Below, one piece after another: positions 4,025-45,522 of a DNA stretch of 46,024 nt. Origin of the DNA: a virus. Both the position numbers and the translations under genes were made by a program. The stretch covers positions 1 to 46,024 of the IMG/VR virus record IMGVR_UViG_3300049489_000468; one strand, written 5' to 3'. The stretch's first letter is position 1. Each line of letters starts with the position of its first letter. Below the pieces are notes generated by a model. It saw nothing but the letters and a program-made list of their open reading frames with translations, did no database searches and was not told the DNA's origin.

Positions 4025-5896
4025 ATGCTATATGCACTAGATATCGAAACCACAGGACTGAACCCCTGGAAAGATAAGATCCTTTGTATTGGTGTTTACT
4101 GTTTTGGGTCATACAAAAAAGTATTTAGAGATCTAAACAAGTTTAAAAAATGGTTTGCAGATAACCCTGACCTCGTTTACGTCACGCACAACGGAAAATT
4201 TGATTGGAAGTTTCTTCTTGTAAATGGTTTAGTCACACTTGATCAAGTGGAATGTCAATGGACGCAAGATACACAATACCTCGCACACGTTATAAAGACA
4301 AAGATCCCGGAGCAGTGGCTACTTGATTACGATGAAGAGAGAACCAAGCGCAACAAAGAATTACCAACTGGAATCGAGCATAGGAAGGCTAAAGGACTCT
4401 CTCTTAAGACACTAGTGCCCTTCTTTTTAGGCTACGCCCCTTTTTGGGAAGATCCAACGAATCACGACAACGATGAATACGTCCTTAAAGATTGTGAGTA
4501 TACCTTTGATTTACTCCCAGTACTTAGATACAACGCTACTGAACAGGACGTGAAGTTCTACTTGACCCGCATGATGCCTTGGGCGAAGATGCTTCTTAAG
4601 GCTGAACTAAAAGGGATTAGTATCGATCTTGAACTCTTAGACAAAATGACGCATGAGACACAAGACCAGATTATTGCGTTAAAGGAAGTGCTAGATACGA
4701 CTTGGGGCGATATTCACGAAGCATGGAATAAGAAGCAAGTTGAAGACCTTGATGCACAGTACCGAACAATGAGGAATGCTGCACTGGAGAAGATGAAGGC
4801 GCCAACGCCTGAGAAGCGAGAAAAGCTTTACGCAAGGTACCGCGCCCTTTATGATAAAGCAGTGAGTAAATTAGAGCCCAGGCTTAATTACGACTCCCCC
4901 GCGCAAATGTTGTGGCTTATAAAAGATCATTTAAAACTAGATGCAACTACCTATAAAGGGGAAGACAGTACTGGTAAAGCAATCTTAGAAAGGTTAGCCA
5001 ATGACGGATACAAAGAATTTAAGACCCTCCTCGAATACAGAGAAGCCCAAAAACTCCACGGATCATTCCTTGAGCCCTACAGAGAAAAGCATATCAACGG
5101 AGTCATTCATCCTACTTACAATCTGTGCGGCACGCGGACTGGACGACTTAGTTCATCTGAGCCGAATCTACAGCAAGTTACCGGAGGACTGTACCCGCTA
5201 TTTCTGGCACGACCTGGAAAAACTTTATGTCAGTATGATATGGAAGCAATCGAAGCCAAGCTCATCGCTTATTATTCGGACGATAAAGTACTTACAGAAC
5301 TTGTGCAAAAAGGTCTTTCGATCCACGACGTAAATGCAATTGACATCTTTGATCTAAAATGTGAGCCAAAAGAAGTAAAGAAGCTTCACTTAGAGGAGCG
5401 TAACGCAGCTAAGCGCCTTGGATTTAGTTGCTTTTATGGTGCCGGATGGCGCCGTATCCAGCAGGCACTGCAAGAAGTAGGCTTCAGGAAGACAGACAAA
5501 GAATGTAAAGACATCCTGAGTAGGCTTAAGAAACGCTTTGAAGGAGCCTTCCGCTTTCACGACGAGATCACTGCACAACTATTAGACGGCCACGAAGTGA
5601 TCAATCTACTCGGTCGACCCCTCTATATTGAGCGACCTGAAGACGTTTACATGAAGGGCTTTAATACCCTCATTCAATCAAGTGCCTCTGATTTGGTGTT
5701 AGAGAGTGCAAGACGAAGTGGACAAGACGTTCTCCTTTTAGTACATGACTTTATTGGTACTGAAGTTCCATTAGACTGTGCTGATAAGGCTGCGAAAGAA
5801 CTCACATATTGTATGACAAATTATAAGTTGACAAATGCGTTAGGACCAATTAAACTGACTGTCGATGGTTGCGTAAACGAAAGGTGGACAAAATGA
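4025..5896 (+). CDS. polA: Family A DNA polymerase with 3'-5' exonuclease
   Basis: 623 residues, a T7/PolI-type replicase without a 5'-3' nuclease domain. Exonuclease DEDD residues: D6 and E8 (ALDIETTGL), D60 (THNGKFDWKFL), and Y152 with D156 (EYVLKD). Polymerase motif A is YDMEAIEAKL (D405, E410), motif B RNAAKRLGFSCFYG (R459, K463, F467, Y471), and motif C VHDFIG (H574, D575). The residue after the motif C Asp is Phe where nearly all PolA enzymes have Glu. The O-helix position equivalent to E. coli 762 is Phe (F467). It is somewhat shorter than T7 polymerase (704). Its stop overlaps the next ATG. Confidence 0.95.
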   Translation: MLYALDIETTGLNPWKDKILCIGVYCFGSYKKVFRDLNKFKKWFADNPDLVYVTHNGKFDWKFLLVNGLVTLDQVECQWTQDTQYLAHVIKTKIPEQWLLDYDEERTKRNKELPTGIEHRKAKGLSLKTLVPFFLGYAPFWEDPTNHDNDEYVLKDCEYTFDLLPVLRYNATEQDVKFYLTRMMPWAKMLLKAELKGISIDLELLDKMTHETQDQIIALKEVLDTTWGDIHEAWNKKQVEDLDAQYRTMRNAALEKMKAPTPEKREKLYARYRALYDKAVSKLEPRLNYDSPAQMLWLIKDHLKLDATTYKGEDSTGKAILERLANDGYKEFKTLLEYREAQKLHGSFLEPYREKHINGVIHPTYNLCGTRTGRLSSSEPNLQQVTGGLYPLFLARPGKTLCQYDMEAIEAKLIAYYSDDKVLTELVQKGLSIHDVNAIDIFDLKCEPKEVKKLHLEERNAAKRLGFSCFYGAGWRRIQQALQEVGFRKTDKECKDILSRLKKRFEGAFRFHDEITAQLLDGHEVINLLGRPLYIERPEDVYMKGFNTLIQSSASDLVLESARRSGQDVLLLVHDFIGTEVPLDCADKAAKELTYCMTNYKLTNALGPIKLTVDGCVNERWTK

Positions 5897-8161: not shown

Positions 8162-8526
8162 GCCAAAAAGCATACCAAATAAAATTAGACAAGAACCAGA
8201 TCATTGTACTCACAAAGACACTCTTTAGATCGACGATTCTCTTAGAGCGTGATGCAGGGCAAAAGAAGCGTCTTAATGTATATAACGACCTTATTAAGAA
8301 GCTCACTGAGATCCCAATGGAGGAGCTTGACAAACACGAAGAAGTCGTCTACAATCTAAAGCGTAAGGAAGTGAAGGAACTAAAGGAATTGGTTCTTGAC
8401 AGGATCTACGGCATTAAGGAAGGCATAATTCCTAAGTACAACAAAGATAACAGGTTTGCAGAGGCAGCCCTTGCAAGGGAACTACTCAAAGGATACGAGG
8501 ACTTGAATGAAAAACTTAAACTATAA
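8158..8526 (+). CDS. Helical hypothetical protein
   Basis: 122 residues, GTG start behind AAGGAG, overlapping the nuclease stop. It is rich in Lys, Glu and Leu (NLKRKEVKELKELVLDRI) and probably alpha-helical throughout. Unrecognised; operon position suggests replication or recombination support. Confidence 0.65.
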   Translation: MSQKAYQIKLDKNQIIVLTKTLFRSTILLERDAGQKKRLNVYNDLIKKLTEIPMEELDKHEEVVYNLKRKEVKELKELVLDRIYGIKEGIIPKYNKDNRFAEAALARELLKGYEDLNEKLKL

Positions 8527-10149: not shown

Positions 10150-10782
10150 ATGACTAAAGTATTAATCATGTTAATAGCCCTATTAGGGCTTGGTTGTGCC
10201 GAATACAAAGCCGTTGACCTGACATACTTAAATAAGTTAAAGAAGTACTGCGCTGATACAAGTTGGATAAAACCAGTACAAGTCTTTGACTTCCGCTCAT
10301 TACATAAAAGAAAGAAACACAAAGAACGTGTACTGTTGTTCGATGCTGGCAATACACCAGAACAAGTGCCGTGTATTGACTCTAAAGCAGGAGTAGGAAC
10401 ACCAAAGCCTAAGTATAAGCTTATGCAAGTTGAGCTGCGCAATATAAAACAGGGGATGGTATTGGAGTTTAATACTTACGGTGAAGTTACTAATGAGCAC
10501 CCAGAGAAATTGATGGTCGCTTGGTACTCTTCTCTTAGTACTGATAAGGATGGAAAGAATGTATTGCCAGGAGAACTTAGTGAGCCTAGGGGATACAATT
10601 TGTCAAGAGAAATGCACCATGGAACATGGTCGGACAGCGGACAGTATGTGTTCAAAGGAAACTATGAAAGAATCTTCTTGACTGTATTTATTTACAGTGC
10701 TAGCTTAGAAGCATGGGATTACATCCCTGGATTATTAATAGACAGAGATTATGGTCGATTGTATGGGAGGCTTTATGAGTAA
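10150..10782 (+). CDS. Exported or lipoprotein-like protein
   Basis: 210 residues from ATG 10150 (GGAGG upstream). The N-terminus [20 protein letters not shown] is a short signal peptide ending in GLGC, an imperfect lipobox, so secretion and possibly lipid attachment at C16 are predicted. The remainder is a sheet-rich domain with further Cys residues at about 34 and 75. There is no known family. It starts a separate small operon with the pentapeptide-repeat gene and might alter the host envelope, for example in exclusion, but that is inference. Confidence 0.7.
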
Positions 10783-11329
10783 CTTACGCGTTCTTACAAA
10801 AGAAGAATTAGACGAAATCCTAAAAAAGCATTTGAAGTGGTTACGAGATGAAGAGGGCGGCGAGAGGGCCAACCTTAGCTACGCCGACCTTAGCTCCGCC
10901 AACCTTCGCTACGCCGACCTTAGCTCCGCCAACCTTCGCTCCGCCAACCTTCGCTACGCCAACCTTCGCTACGCCAACCTTAGCTCCGCCGACCTTAGCT
11001 CCGCCAACCTTCGCTACGCCGACCTTAGCTCCGCCAACCTTCGCTACGCCGACCTTCGCTACGCCAACCTTCGCTACGCCAACCTTAGCTCCGCCGACCT
11101 TATTTATTTCACTTTTAATCGCAACACGGCTTATTTCGTTTTTGACGGAATGATCCGCATTGGATGTGAGTATCACAAAATTGAAACATGGTTAGATAAG
11201 TACGAAGAGATTGGAAAGGAAGCCGGATACTCTGATATTGAGATTATGGGATATAAGGGATTCATTGATTTATGTGTGAAATTGCAAGAGAAGAAACCGA
11301 TTGCCAAACCAAAGGAGAGTGAATCGTGA
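10775..11329 (+). CDS. Pentapeptide-repeat protein
   Basis: 184 residues from ATG 10775 (GGAGG upstream, 8-base overlap with the previous gene). After a 30-residue acidic helical start come 16 consecutive A(N/D)LxY/S-type pentapeptides (about residues 32-111), which fold as a right-handed square beta-helix, then a 70-residue alpha/beta tail starting [14 protein letters not shown]. Some pentapeptide-repeat proteins mimic DNA and protect gyrase; many have no known role. The usual A(D/N)LXX is strict here. The encoding DNA is a nearly perfect 15-bp tandem array, so repeat number may vary. Confidence 0.88.
10869..11108 (+). repeat. 15-bp tandem repeats inside pentapeptide gene
   Basis: About sixteen copies of GCCrACCTTmGCTmC in direct succession, varying mainly at three positions. 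In-frame gain or loss of 15 bp would add or remove one pentapeptide without breaking the frame. The array also produces long spurious open frames on both strands. Confidence 0.9.
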
Positions 11330-11487: not shown

Positions 11488-11876
11488 CAGACGAAATCAA
11501 AAAGCTGCGAGAAAAGGCAGCGCACATAATTGCAAATGAGTCGCCAAAATATTCTGGTTATCCAGATCACTTCGCTACAGCTCTTGAGGCTTTTGATGCA
11601 GCGTGGGAAATTGCGGAGAAGGAAATCACTGAGTTGCGAACTGAAGTCGAGCGGCTACATATATTCGAGCGGGAAGTATACAACGGCAAAGCGAACGCGA
11701 AAATTGTTAGTGCGTTCATTGAGCAGCGCAACTTCTGGAAAGAGTGGTGTGAGAGATTGGAACAATGTCTTCTTGAGTTTGGCAACACCGACACTGCTTT
11801 TACATACATAGAATTAGTCCAAATGGCGTGTGAAGTTTTACATGACTTTAGAAAAGCAAAGAAAGAACAGGGTTGA
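11484..11876 (+). CDS. Coiled-coil hypothetical protein
   Basis: 130 residues from ATG 11484. A heptad-like stretch (AWEIAEKEITELRTEVERLH, about residues 44-63) predicts a coiled coil. No catalytic motif. Its stop codon lies within the -35 box of the promoter for the structured RNA that follows. Confidence 0.65.
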   Translation: MTDEIKKLREKAAHIIANESPKYSGYPDHFATALEAFDAAWEIAEKEITELRTEVERLHIFEREVYNGKANAKIVSAFIEQRNFWKEWCERLEQCLLEFGNTDTAFTYIELVQMACEVLHDFRKAKKEQG

Positions 11877-11901
11877 CAAAACAAAATAAGTAAGCTATTC
11901 T
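11873..11901 (+). promoter_or_regulatory. Near-consensus sigma-70 promoter for the RNA region
   Basis: TTGACA (11873-11878), exactly 17 bp, TATTCT (11896-11901). This is the best rightward promoter in the window. Start predicted near 11908, exactly where the closing stem of the structured RNA begins. Confidence 0.75.
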
Positions 11902-11907
11902 TTTAAC

Positions 11908-12186
11908 GAGGCGAAGGTGCGCAAGCTGCAACAGTCGGCATCAATGATACGGGTGACACGCGGTTGCTGGAGACGCACAGATGAAGATAATATTCGGTGA
12001 CGAAGACGTGGGTAATTACAGAGCTTGGATTCGCTGATACAAGCATAATGTAGGGCTATCAGGGCCTGAGAGAGTTAAAGGGTGCCACGGCATGTGGCTA
12101 GGACTAAACCACTACCTTTAATAATCGTTCTGTTAAACCACAGTAATCACATGGCCAGGGTCGCGGCTGGCTCGCCTCACCTTTTA
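11908..12186 (+). ncRNA. Probable structured non-coding RNA, family not recognised
   Basis: About 280 bases with no sustained reading frame between a near-consensus promoter and the next gene. The 5' end GAGGCGA (11908-11914) can pair with TCGCCTC (12172-12178). Internal hairpins include GCTTG/CAAGC (near 12024-12045), GCCAC-GGCAT-GTGGC (near 12083-12097), GTGG/CCAC and GCCAG-GGTCGCGG-CTGGC (near 12153-12170). The transcript ends in a short T run after CACC. I could not match it to tmRNA, RNase P, 6S, group I intron or a riboswitch. It could be a regulatory or counter-defence RNA, or a long leader for the gene at 12207. Confidence 0.6.
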
Positions 12187-12206
12187 ATATAGTTCCAGGA
12201 GGAACC

Positions 12207-12404
12207 ATGACAATAGATATGATAGTCCTAATAGTTTTTATGCACTGTGGAGTAAAGAATGACGGCAAGCGAATAAGCGATGCCTCTAAGAAATGCAGTA
12301 ATCAGGTGATTGAGTGCTTAGGGTATGAAGTAAAGAAACATCCACAAGTCCCAGTAGAAGTGCTCTTAGGTAAATGCCAAGAAGAGATACCCAGTGTTAA
12401 GTAG
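12207..12404 (+). CDS. Small Cys-containing protein with hydrophobic N-terminus
   Basis: 65 residues. ATG 12207 follows CAGGAGG at good spacing. A short hydrophobic start (IDMIVLIVFMHCGV) precedes a charged region with three further Cys. It could be exported or membrane-attached. With the next gene it resembles a two-gene envelope pair, perhaps spanin-like, but no lipobox is convincing. Confidence 0.6.
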   Translation: MTIDMIVLIVFMHCGVKNDGKRISDASKKCSNQVIECLGYEVKKHPQVPVEVLLGKCQEEIPSVK

Positions 12405-12711
12405 AATAAGCTTATTACTTATAGTAGGTATGCTCATGATTCTAATTGCGCAGCTTCATCTGCTTTGTACTTATATTATAGATAAGCAGGTGTGGGATAT
12501 CGATACAATTCGCAGCAGTTATACCAATACGGCGTATACAATGTATATACGAGGCTGTATGAAGGGCGTTAATGAGTACCCACAAGAATATCGTAAAGAG
12601 GATCACGGGTTCAACGTCAATTCACCTACCAACTGGTGCTATGATCAAGGACAAGACCAATCCGTTGAAATAGACGGCGAAGCCTCTAATCTAGGGAGAT
12701 TACGTAAATAG
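12394..12711 (+). CDS. Membrane-anchored hypothetical protein
   Basis: 105 residues, GTG start at 12394 overlapping the previous gene by 11 bases. A single strong membrane helix spans residues 4-27 (RISLLLIVGMLMILIAQLH), followed by a Tyr- and Cys-containing outer domain. An alternative ATG lies at 12430 but would cut the membrane helix. Unrecognised. Confidence 0.6.
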   Translation: MLSRISLLLIVGMLMILIAQLHLLCTYIIDKQVWDIDTIRSSYTNTAYTMYIRGCMKGVNEYPQEYRKEDHGFNVNSPTNWCYDQGQDQSVEIDGEASNLGRLRK

Positions 12712-13488: not shown

Positions 13489-13738
13489 GAACAAAGGGTA
13501 CTATGATGGGTTCGTGGCAGGAGTAAAGTTAGCTACGCACGATCTAATATTAAAAATTGTAGACGTATCTACATTCGCTCCTACAATTAACGAGATTGAC
13601 TTTGATGATCAATACCAACTTGGCTATGAGCTAGGATACATTCGCACGTTACTAGAAGAGCAGGGATATGAAATTGGAAAGCAGTATGTTAAACCTTTTA
13701 CATTATTGGAGTTACCACATGCAAACAAAGTTCTTTAA
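13481..13738 (+). CDS. Hypothetical protein
   Basis: 85 residues starting by overlap with the recombinase end (ATG 13481 behind GAAAGGA). The repeated pattern YYDGFVAGVKLA and YQLGYELGYIRTL looks like short helix hairpins. No excisionase-type HTH is apparent. Unknown. Confidence 0.65.
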   Translation: MDKNKGYYDGFVAGVKLATHDLILKIVDVSTFAPTINEIDFDDQYQLGYELGYIRTLLEEQGYEIGKQYVKPFTLLELPHANKVL

Positions 13739-14153
13739 TGCATTTCAAAAACTACGTGAAACAGGCAAAGATCTGTACAAACTGAGAGGAAATCAACTGC
13801 TCATTGAATTGGTAGAGGAAGATGTAAAAGCATCTAAGACTTCCTCCATTATTATTGCTGAAGACGTCAGACAGGTTCACGGCGGCGCTAAAGAAAATGC
13901 TGGACTCGTTGGTATCGTACTTGATCGCGGAGAAGGTTACTACGACGAAGATACAGGAGAGACAGTTGAATTAGATGTTAAGGTCGGCGATGTAGTGCTT
14001 GTACCTAAGTACGCGATCTCGCAATACTCAACCTTCCCTGGTATCATCGGCCCTGTCTATAACAAGATTGCCTTGTGTGTAGAGAGCGAAATCAAAATGT
14101 ATTACAAAGGACAAGATGCGTATGAGAAGGCTAAGGGTATTCTAAATGAGTAA
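13719..14153 (+). CDS. GroES-like co-chaperonin
   Basis: 144 residues from ATG 13719 (TTGGAG upstream). The Cpn10 barrel pattern is visible: LRGNQLLIELVEED (24-37), a loop with TSSIIIAEDV (43-52), AGLVGIVLDRGEGYY (63-77), DVKVGDVVLVPKY (88-100). It has about 45 residues more than bacterial GroES (97). Phages encode such proteins, as T4 gp31 does, to change the GroEL chamber for folding capsid protein. The assignment rests on pattern, not on strict identity; it overlaps the next gene by 8 bases. Confidence 0.7.
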   Translation: MQTKFFNAFQKLRETGKDLYKLRGNQLLIELVEEDVKASKTSSIIIAEDVRQVHGGAKENAGLVGIVLDRGEGYYDEDTGETVELDVKVGDVVLVPKYAISQYSTFPGIIGPVYNKIALCVESEIKMYYKGQDAYEKAKGILNE

Positions 14154-44635: not shown

Positions 44636-45469
44636 TTAATTCGCCGGGTCTTTTTCATCTCTTGGCCTTACAACGTAATCATCCGGTATCTTGTGTTCAG
44701 GTGGCTTGGCTTTACGTCTAAAGAACTCAGCAATGTACTTCCCTACGGCAACCGGAGTAGCGTGACTAGTTCCACAGAACTCTAGTTCAGCATCACAGAA
44801 AGGCTCATACTCGTCTACAGGGCCGCCGTAGTAACTTTGGGGATGTATCGTTCCAGGAACAAGATAACCCCCGATGACATGCATGTTCTTCTTATTGCCT
44901 ACAGCAAGACATGCTGGAAATACATGACAAACCTCGCTCAAATTAGCGTTCTCCTTGTCTCCTCTTGATCTCACGTTACCTGCAGCCATGAATAGAACAG
45001 TATTGCTATTAGCTAAGCTAATAAGCACTTTCTCTTCTAAAAGAATCTCGTCCTTACCGCCGTTATCAGTAACGCTACTAAACGACATATTCACCACATC
45101 AGGCTTAATCTTATAAAGATGCGTATAAGCTCTAATGAACGACTTCTCAATGCTCTCTCTGCCTGCAGTAAACACCTTAATTACAATAAAACAGTAGTCA
45201 GCTTCAGCACCGCTATAGCCTTTGGCACCGCTATTCGCAAGGAAGCTCCGCTCAATAGTATCTAAAACATAGGTACCATGTTGTATTTCATCTCGGCCTA
45301 CCTCGGCCTTATTAGTAGATGCGTCGTAATGGCCTTCTTTGCAAAGCTTCGTCGACTTTCCGCTATAGCCTGAGTCCATTACAGCTACCCGCAGCGGAGC
45401 TGCGTTAGCCGCGAGCGCCGCCATAACAACTAACGCGAGGAAGGCAAGCCTTAGTATTGTGTGCTTCAT
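44636..45469 (-). CDS. Secreted subtilisin-like serine protease
   Basis: 277 residues from ATG 45469 (GGGGGTG upstream; GTG 45475 also possible). A signal peptide of about 23 residues (MKHTILRLAFLALVVMAALA, cleavage after ANA) precedes an S8 peptidase core with the complete catalytic set: D32 (VAVMDSGY), H64 (IQHGTYV), oxyanion N165 (FMAAGN) and S235 (CGTSHATPVAVG). There is no propeptide inhibitor domain of usual length. It has about eight Cys, consistent with extracytoplasmic disulfides. A phage-encoded exported subtilase is unusual; a role in lysis, envelope alteration or superinfection exclusion is possible. The end is rich in Lys, Pro and Asp. Confidence 0.87.
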   Translation of the reverse strand: MKHTILRLAFLALVVMAALAANAAPLRVAVMDSGYSGKSTKLCKEGHYDASTNKAEVGRDEIQHGTYVLDTIERSFLANSGAKGYSGAEADYCFIVIKVFTAGRESIEKSFIRAYTHLYKIKPDVVNMSFSSVTDNGGKDEILLEEKVLISLANSNTVLFMAAGNVRSRGDKENANLSEVCHVFPACLAVGNKKNMHVIGGYLVPGTIHPQSYYGGPVDEYEPFCDAELEFCGTSHATPVAVGKYIAEFFRRKAKPPEHKIPDDYVVRPRDEKDPAN

Positions 45470-45522
45470 GTGCACCCCCTAACAACAGAATAGCACTAAA
45501 CGGCATTACGTTACAAGACAAA

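Follow-up and report, generated by a model that had tools for sequence, protein, structure and literature searches.

What is the element of ~278 nucleotides (nt) that lies at positions 11908-12185 of the IMG/VR virus record IMGVR_UViG_3300049489_000468, and does it serve the gene that follows it or act as a gene of its own? The whole stretch analysed, 46,024 bases, is referred to here as the window, and a sequence-only reading of it had claimed an unrecognised structured RNA at this locus. The claim is borne out by our analyses, which found no Rfam match and very strong covariation, and sequence comparison shows positions 11908-12185 to be a member of a family of predicted structured phage RNAs that has no counterpart in Rfam 15. 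In the Rfam covariance search that the reading had proposed as a check, neither the window nor the loci of seven other members gave a match at gathering thresholds, and the region 11800-12300 gave none up to E=10.

Identification of the RNA family

The collections searched hold no close relatives of the window. Phage MW202601 is related to it (terminase 33% and polymerase 31% by tblastn; capsid 57% in alignment A3), a capsid alignment brought in 25 IMG/VR contigs, and queries with the window integrase and polymerase returned nothing from IMG/VR. A structure model was needed because plain DNA similarity is too weak: blastn of the element region against phages and plasmids gave chance matches only, and direct DNA comparison with 27 related records located no convincing copy of the RNA. 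R1, a covariance model built from the window RNA sequence alone, matched the loci L048:12842-12543(-) and L051:6348-6479(+), both at E ~4e-12 (0.45 Mb searched). The window, L048 and L051 have in common the blocks GAAGAYAAUA, GNGGGUAAUY and AACCNCAGUAA, with a near-fixed spacing from the last shared block to CCUUUU. IMG/VR was then scanned with a pattern of the first two blocks, and the matches listed were kept only where the third block and the pairing were also present; the true members among the matches listed are L087, L090, L091/L210, L098, L126, L136, L157 and L170 (two copies). The model then yielded L115, L146 and L208 and, in L098, a second copy. The family is thereby seen in at least 12 phage contigs, whose sizes extend from small fragments to 155-165 kb. 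Further members exist beyond the matches listed, and the pattern scan was skewed to window-like members.

Other searches gave no additional members. Blastn of the other members against phages found nothing significant, and model R2 matched none of 296 genomes from a single bacterial phylum. When 84,980 species of bacteria and archaea were scanned with the pattern, in a form that would miss L115-like members on these genome contigs, six matches appeared, all attributable to chance and lacking both the CCNCAGTAA block and a model match.

Predicted fold and covariation

The predicted fold is a four-way junction (P1, P2, P3-P5 and P6) around ~45 near-invariant, mostly unpaired bases, and its parts follow one another in the order P1-AG-P2-GAAGAYAAUA-P3-P4-GUAAUY/URAA-P5-AGUAA-P6-P1'. 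The positions of these parts in the window are as follows.

11908..12185, + strand: structured RNA gene, ~278 nt through the end of the U tract (model searches R1/R3, covariation)
11908..11914, + strand: P1 5' strand GAGGCGA; 7/7 P1 pairs doubly changed across members
11917..11921, + strand: P2 5' strand GTGCG, 2 nt (AG) past P1; covarying
11928..11967, + strand: P2b variable arm with base GCAAC/GTTGC (folding P ~0.7), of member-specific length and sequence
11974..11978, + strand: P2 3' strand CGCAC, partner of GTGCG; covarying
11979..11996, + strand: conserved, mostly single-stranded joiner AG-ATGAAGATAATATTCG; GAAGAYAAUA in every type-A member, L115 and L146 among them
11997..12000, + strand: P3 5' strand GTGA; covarying
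12008..12011, + strand: P4 5' strand GTGG, then GTAATT; covarying
12018..12133, + strand: P5 arm with base ACAGAGC/GTTCTGT and a large variable insert; basal pairs covary
12138..12141, + strand: P4 3' strand CCAC, then AGTAA; covarying
12147..12150, + strand: P3 3' strand TCAC, partner of GTGA; covarying
12154..12171, + strand: P6 hairpin GCCAG-GGTCGCGG-CTGGC, adjoining the P1 3' strand without a gap
12172..12178, + strand: P1 3' strand TCGCCTC; 7/7 P1 pairs doubly changed across members
12182..12185, + strand: closing U tract, a few nt after P1; a U tract follows P1 in most members

The 7-bp closing stem of the sequence-only reading is P1, whose strands GAGGCGA and TCGCCTC pair perfectly and are followed by ACC-TTTT; in a few members P1 has one mismatch or one pair fewer. 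The 2-nt linker between P1 and P2 is AG (CG or UA in a few members). The pairs of P2 are GUGCG/CGCAC in the window, GCGUG/CACGC in most members and GCGGA/UCCGC in L051, and its arm has an internal loop that is conserved and a tip that varies. The joiner has the unpaired consensus AG-nnGAAGAYAAUAYYCG; in L048:12690-12740(-) the joiner block AGACAATATT is present in duplicate. P3 (4 bp, fully covarying) is GUGA/UCAC in the window and GAGC/GCUC, GUGC/GCAC, GCAC/GUGC, AUGC/GCAU or GGGC/GCCC elsewhere. A UUCG/CGAA hairpin at 11993-12004, part of the minimum-energy fold, was rejected in favour of the covarying P3. YGAANNN stands between P3 and P4, and P4 is GUGG/CCAC in the window and L170 and GAGG/CCUC in most members; the internal loop GUAAUY/URAA beyond it is conserved. 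The P5 loop varies from ~4 nt to >100 nt, AGUAA sits between the P5 arm and P6, and P6 has double changes at 4/5 pairs with a conserved GUCGCG-type loop. The length of the RNA across the family is ~125 to 296 nt. A hairpin pattern made from the window P5 arm gave one match, due to chance, and the second copy in L136 scored weakly (E 0.1-0.3), yet its P1, P2 and P6 are evident on direct reading.

The strongest evidence for this fold comes from covariation. RNAalifold, applied to 11 aligned members (alignment A7, in which two variable loops were shortened by hand and pairs were confined to core columns), returned the same structure as the reading by eye, with 19/28 pairs doubly changed. Compensating changes in related phages, named by the sequence-only reading as a further check, are also present in A8, an alignment of 16 natural sequences without hand editing, where 23/28 pairs show double changes and 94.9% of pair cells are standard pairs, A8 being fitted to the model and hence leaning toward it. 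Double-change cells number 95 in A8 versus a shuffled mean of 23.4 (0/500 shuffles as high), and controls in which the alignment was slid are 32-43% paired; the model puts the 5' strands of P1 and P2 in the wrong place in a few members with long loops. Model R3, which was trained without the window, nevertheless scores it at 90 bits (E=2.3e-23), placing it in the family, and scores L210, likewise absent from training, at E=6.8e-21.

Limits of the element, promoter and reading frames

The promoter that the sequence-only reading had described is present, near-consensus and precisely placed.

11873..11901, + strand: sigma70-type promoter TTGACA-17-TATTCT, 10/12 consensus

Its boxes (TTGACA, 11873-11878; TATTCT, 11896-11901) are separated by a 17-bp spacer, and P1 begins 6 nt on, at 11908; an equally good promoter at the equivalent exact placement is found for just 0.4% of random positions. 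The number of promoter-like sites around the element equals chance expectation. The further claim that this is the best rightward promoter of the genome does not hold, the top sigma70-like promoter on the + strand being TTGACA-17-TACAAT at 8327-8355 (11/12). Promoters in the matching position occur in L048 (10/12) and L210 (9/12), and those of the remaining members are weaker or not visible; members that lack a good promoter may be processed out of longer transcripts. Both ends of the RNA are thus predicted to be fixed, by the conserved P1 stem, by the promoter in several members and by the U tract in most. As the reading had stated, the element contains no convincing reading frame in any of the six frames, and no frame is open across the region.

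Genomic contexts and tandem copies

Rightward genes occupy the window from 76 to ~15.3 kb and leftward genes the part between 15.5 and 45.5 kb, and the recognisable ones encode a terminase, portal, capsid, family A polymerase, integrase-like protein and Cpn10-like protein. Subtilase-like protease, ClpP-like and GroES (Cpn10)-like proteins are encoded at 44636-45475, 2006-2557 and 13668-14153, respectively. Directly 3' of the RNA are two overlapping small open reading frames (ORFs), 12207-12404 and 12394-12711, both with hydrophobic N-termini. Neither has a Pfam match or a match in the relatives scanned; ORF 12207-12404 has no PHROGs match, and ORF 12394-12711 has no tblastn match in the phages collection and none in IMG/VR.

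In the window and in L170 the RNA is found near a holin-like gene, which is followed by the integrase gene. In six syntenic relatives (L039, L044, L042, L058, L061 and L063) the holin-like or preceding gene is close to the integrase or Cpn10 gene with no copy of the RNA between them, and the window RNA therefore lies in a 2.6-kb lineage-specific insert. A pentapeptide-repeat protein is encoded inside this insert at 10751-11329. L170 is the closest syntenic case and has two tandem copies at exactly the position of the window RNA. Elsewhere the contexts are portal, scaffold and capsid genes (L048, L051, L115), a UvsX-like gene (L213), an upstream family A DNA polymerase gene (L216) and an IMPDH gene adjoining an array (L209). 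L115 directly follows tRNA-Thr and tRNA-Gln genes and L207 lies ~340 nt after a tRNA-Met gene. No single class of downstream gene accompanies the RNA consistently, the neighbours differing in most phages.

Tandem copies are present in L170, L098 and L136. The second copies in L098 and L136 directly follow the normal copy and keep P1, P2 and P6 with the third arm replaced; L208 looks similar. These paralogous RNAs, which have the P1/P2/P6 chassis and a third arm without the GAAGAYAAUA core, are located as follows.

L098:5824-5984, - strand: paralogous RNA
L136:530-735, + strand: paralogous RNA
L208:6039-6235, - strand: paralogous RNA

Beyond the two tandem RNAs of L098, at ~5730-5815(-), there is a third small element, GCGGCAG...TGCCGC-GCTTTT, which is possibly another relative.

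These observations strongly indicate that the RNA would be transcribed as its own small gene and act in trans, the former because several members have their own promoter and most a 3' U tract, the latter because the neighbouring genes are unrelated and copies occur in tandem. The varied contexts, tandem copies and swapped third arms point to a modular RNA rather than to a cis-acting leader.

Comparison with known RNAs

tRNAs are marked by an anticodon arm, a canonical T-loop and a CCA end, and transfer-messenger RNAs (tmRNAs) by a tRNA-like end with a G3-U70 pair, a tag reading frame and pseudoknots. The phage RNA resembles both in having an end stem of 7 bp, a linker of 2 nt, a multi-arm junction and, flush against the 3' strand of that stem, a hairpin of 5 bp, but it has no anticodon arm, CCA or tag frame and is undetected by ARAGORN and by the Rfam tRNA and tmRNA models. 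ARAGORN found no tRNA or tmRNA in the window, no frame with a tag ending in AA-stop is present and position 3-70 is G-C. Group I, group II intron and known ribozyme models likewise have no match in the window, in agreement with the reading's exclusion of tmRNA and group I introns. At L115, L146, L207 and L213 the only Rfam matches are the two tRNA genes beside L115.

GOLLD and ROOL are large phage and prophage RNAs that are often found near tRNA islands (PMC12286853). They are similarly phage-borne, non-coding and highly structured, and occur near tRNA genes as do L115 and L207; however, they are >600-800 nt with an elaborate fold, whereas the RNAs of the present family measure 125-296 nt and have a four-way junction and another core, and no member matches their covariance models. 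The T4 RNAs rnaC and rnaD (species 1 and 2) are also small stable phage RNAs beside tRNA genes, and inspection of rnaC by eye shows an end stem like an acceptor, abutted by a T-arm-like hairpin, but both lack the GAAGAYAAUA and GGUAAUY...CCNCAGUAA blocks, and the whole T4 genome has no match to the model. The phi29-type pRNA is another structured phage RNA, and three members here lie in head/packaging gene blocks; in contrast, others are found in regions for recombination, replication, tail or cargo and there is no Rfam match. Phage RNAs of unknown function have precedents in GOLLD, ROOL (PMC12286853) and T4 rnaC/rnaD, and the present RNA is new at the level of the RNA family, no earlier description having been found in the open-licence literature.

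A possible tRNA-like mode of action

The overall best explanation, which we regard as probable, is a family of structured phage RNAs that are free-standing genes acting in trans and that would dock on conserved host machinery. Its specific form, in which the docking RNA is tRNA-shaped, is put forward only tentatively. In their dimensions P1, the linker of 2 nt and the adjoining 5-bp hairpin equal the tRNA acceptor, the linker at positions 8-9 and the T-arm, respectively; the tRNA shape and the invariant core would dock on host machinery for tRNA or translation; and the RNA may then act for the phage as a mimic, decoy or regulator. The invariant core would provide the contact surface and the variable P2b and P5 arms may carry phage-specific functions. 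The most divergent members, L115 and L146, are the most tRNA-like, with a UA linker, a short arm GCC-AAAGAUAWA-GGC at the place of the D-arm and a 7-nt, T-loop-compatible loop UGNGAAG. A tRNA-shaped RNA is favoured by the tRNA-like dimensions, by these features and by the location of L115 after tRNA genes.

A number of results weigh against this explanation. The loop of the T-arm-like hairpin is 8 nt in most members, without a canonical T-loop, a CCA end is not encoded and the G3-U70 pair of alanine tmRNA is absent. In the stretches scanned, most members lack tRNA genes. The conserved single-stranded segments are no more complementary to Escherichia coli 16S/23S rRNA than are shuffles. T4 rnaC and rnaD were rejected as relatives, the best R2 score (6 bits, filters off) lying outside the rnaC/rnaD stretch. 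The fold itself does not stand out by energy: the folding energy of the window RNA is no better than that of shuffles (z=-0.75), the true P3 helix is missing from the minimum-energy fold, and 7-bp pairs at a comparable distance are common, numbering 279 in the window. The proof of the predicted structure is comparative, not energetic.

Alternative explanations

The alternative that survives best, though we consider it unlikely, is a scaffold or assembly RNA, copies of which would self-assemble or bind a phage protein to form a particle, like GOLLD and ROOL. As for those RNAs, the family is phage-borne and sometimes located beside tRNA genes (PMC12286853), and hetero-assembly would fit tandem related copies with exchanged third arms. 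However, the members are far smaller (~125-296 nt versus >600), are unrelated to the GOLLD and ROOL models and have no intermolecular contact that is apparent from their sequences.

A cis-acting 5' leader (riboswitch or attenuator) of the gene at 12207 is improbable. It would account for the succession of promoter, structured leader and U tract, with the ATG at 12207 only 21 nt after the U tract and its strong Shine-Dalgarno sequence AGGAGG within a small hairpin, GUUCC-AGGA-GGAAC (12192-12206; P 0.98), and a ligand pocket would suit the invariant core. Nevertheless, the downstream gene differs in nearly every phage, the ORFs that follow the RNA in the window lack the matches noted above, each tandem copy is closed by its own P1 and L115 is located behind tRNA genes.

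Similarly doubtful is a ribozyme or mobile intron-like RNA that would cut or move itself. The ~45 near-invariant, mostly unpaired positions resemble catalytic cores, and the varied genomic places and tandem duplication would suit mobility, but none of the group I, group II or small ribozyme models matches, and in the contexts examined the RNA sits between genes, not within them, with no associated endonuclease or reverse transcriptase noticed. A DNA element (integrase attachment site or replication origin) with accidental RNA-like symmetry is very improbable and already contradicted, for although a tyrosine recombinase gene lies 0.1-0.6 kb downstream of the RNA in the window and L170, compensatory changes that keep pairing >250 nt apart, including G-U pairs, are unexplained by DNA recognition, most members have no adjacent integrase and in syntenic relatives the integrase is present but the RNA is not.

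Significance

Phage RNAs such as GOLLD, ROOL and T4 rnaC/rnaD are a long-standing puzzle, to which the present family adds an RNA small enough for synthesis, folding, structure solution and knockout, and its covariance model is a direct route to more members and to tests of function. Going by the comparative evidence, in which the predicted fold is kept as its letters change across at least 12 phages, the RNA is real and useful to phages, and the large amount of invariant unpaired sequence, kept by phages that otherwise share little, must bind or do something conserved. It is quite possible that these RNAs represent a new class of phage RNA machines, in which a tRNA-dimensioned P1/P2/P6 chassis with an exchangeable third arm, present singly or in tandem in small phages and in phages of 155-165 kb, would engage a universal host apparatus.
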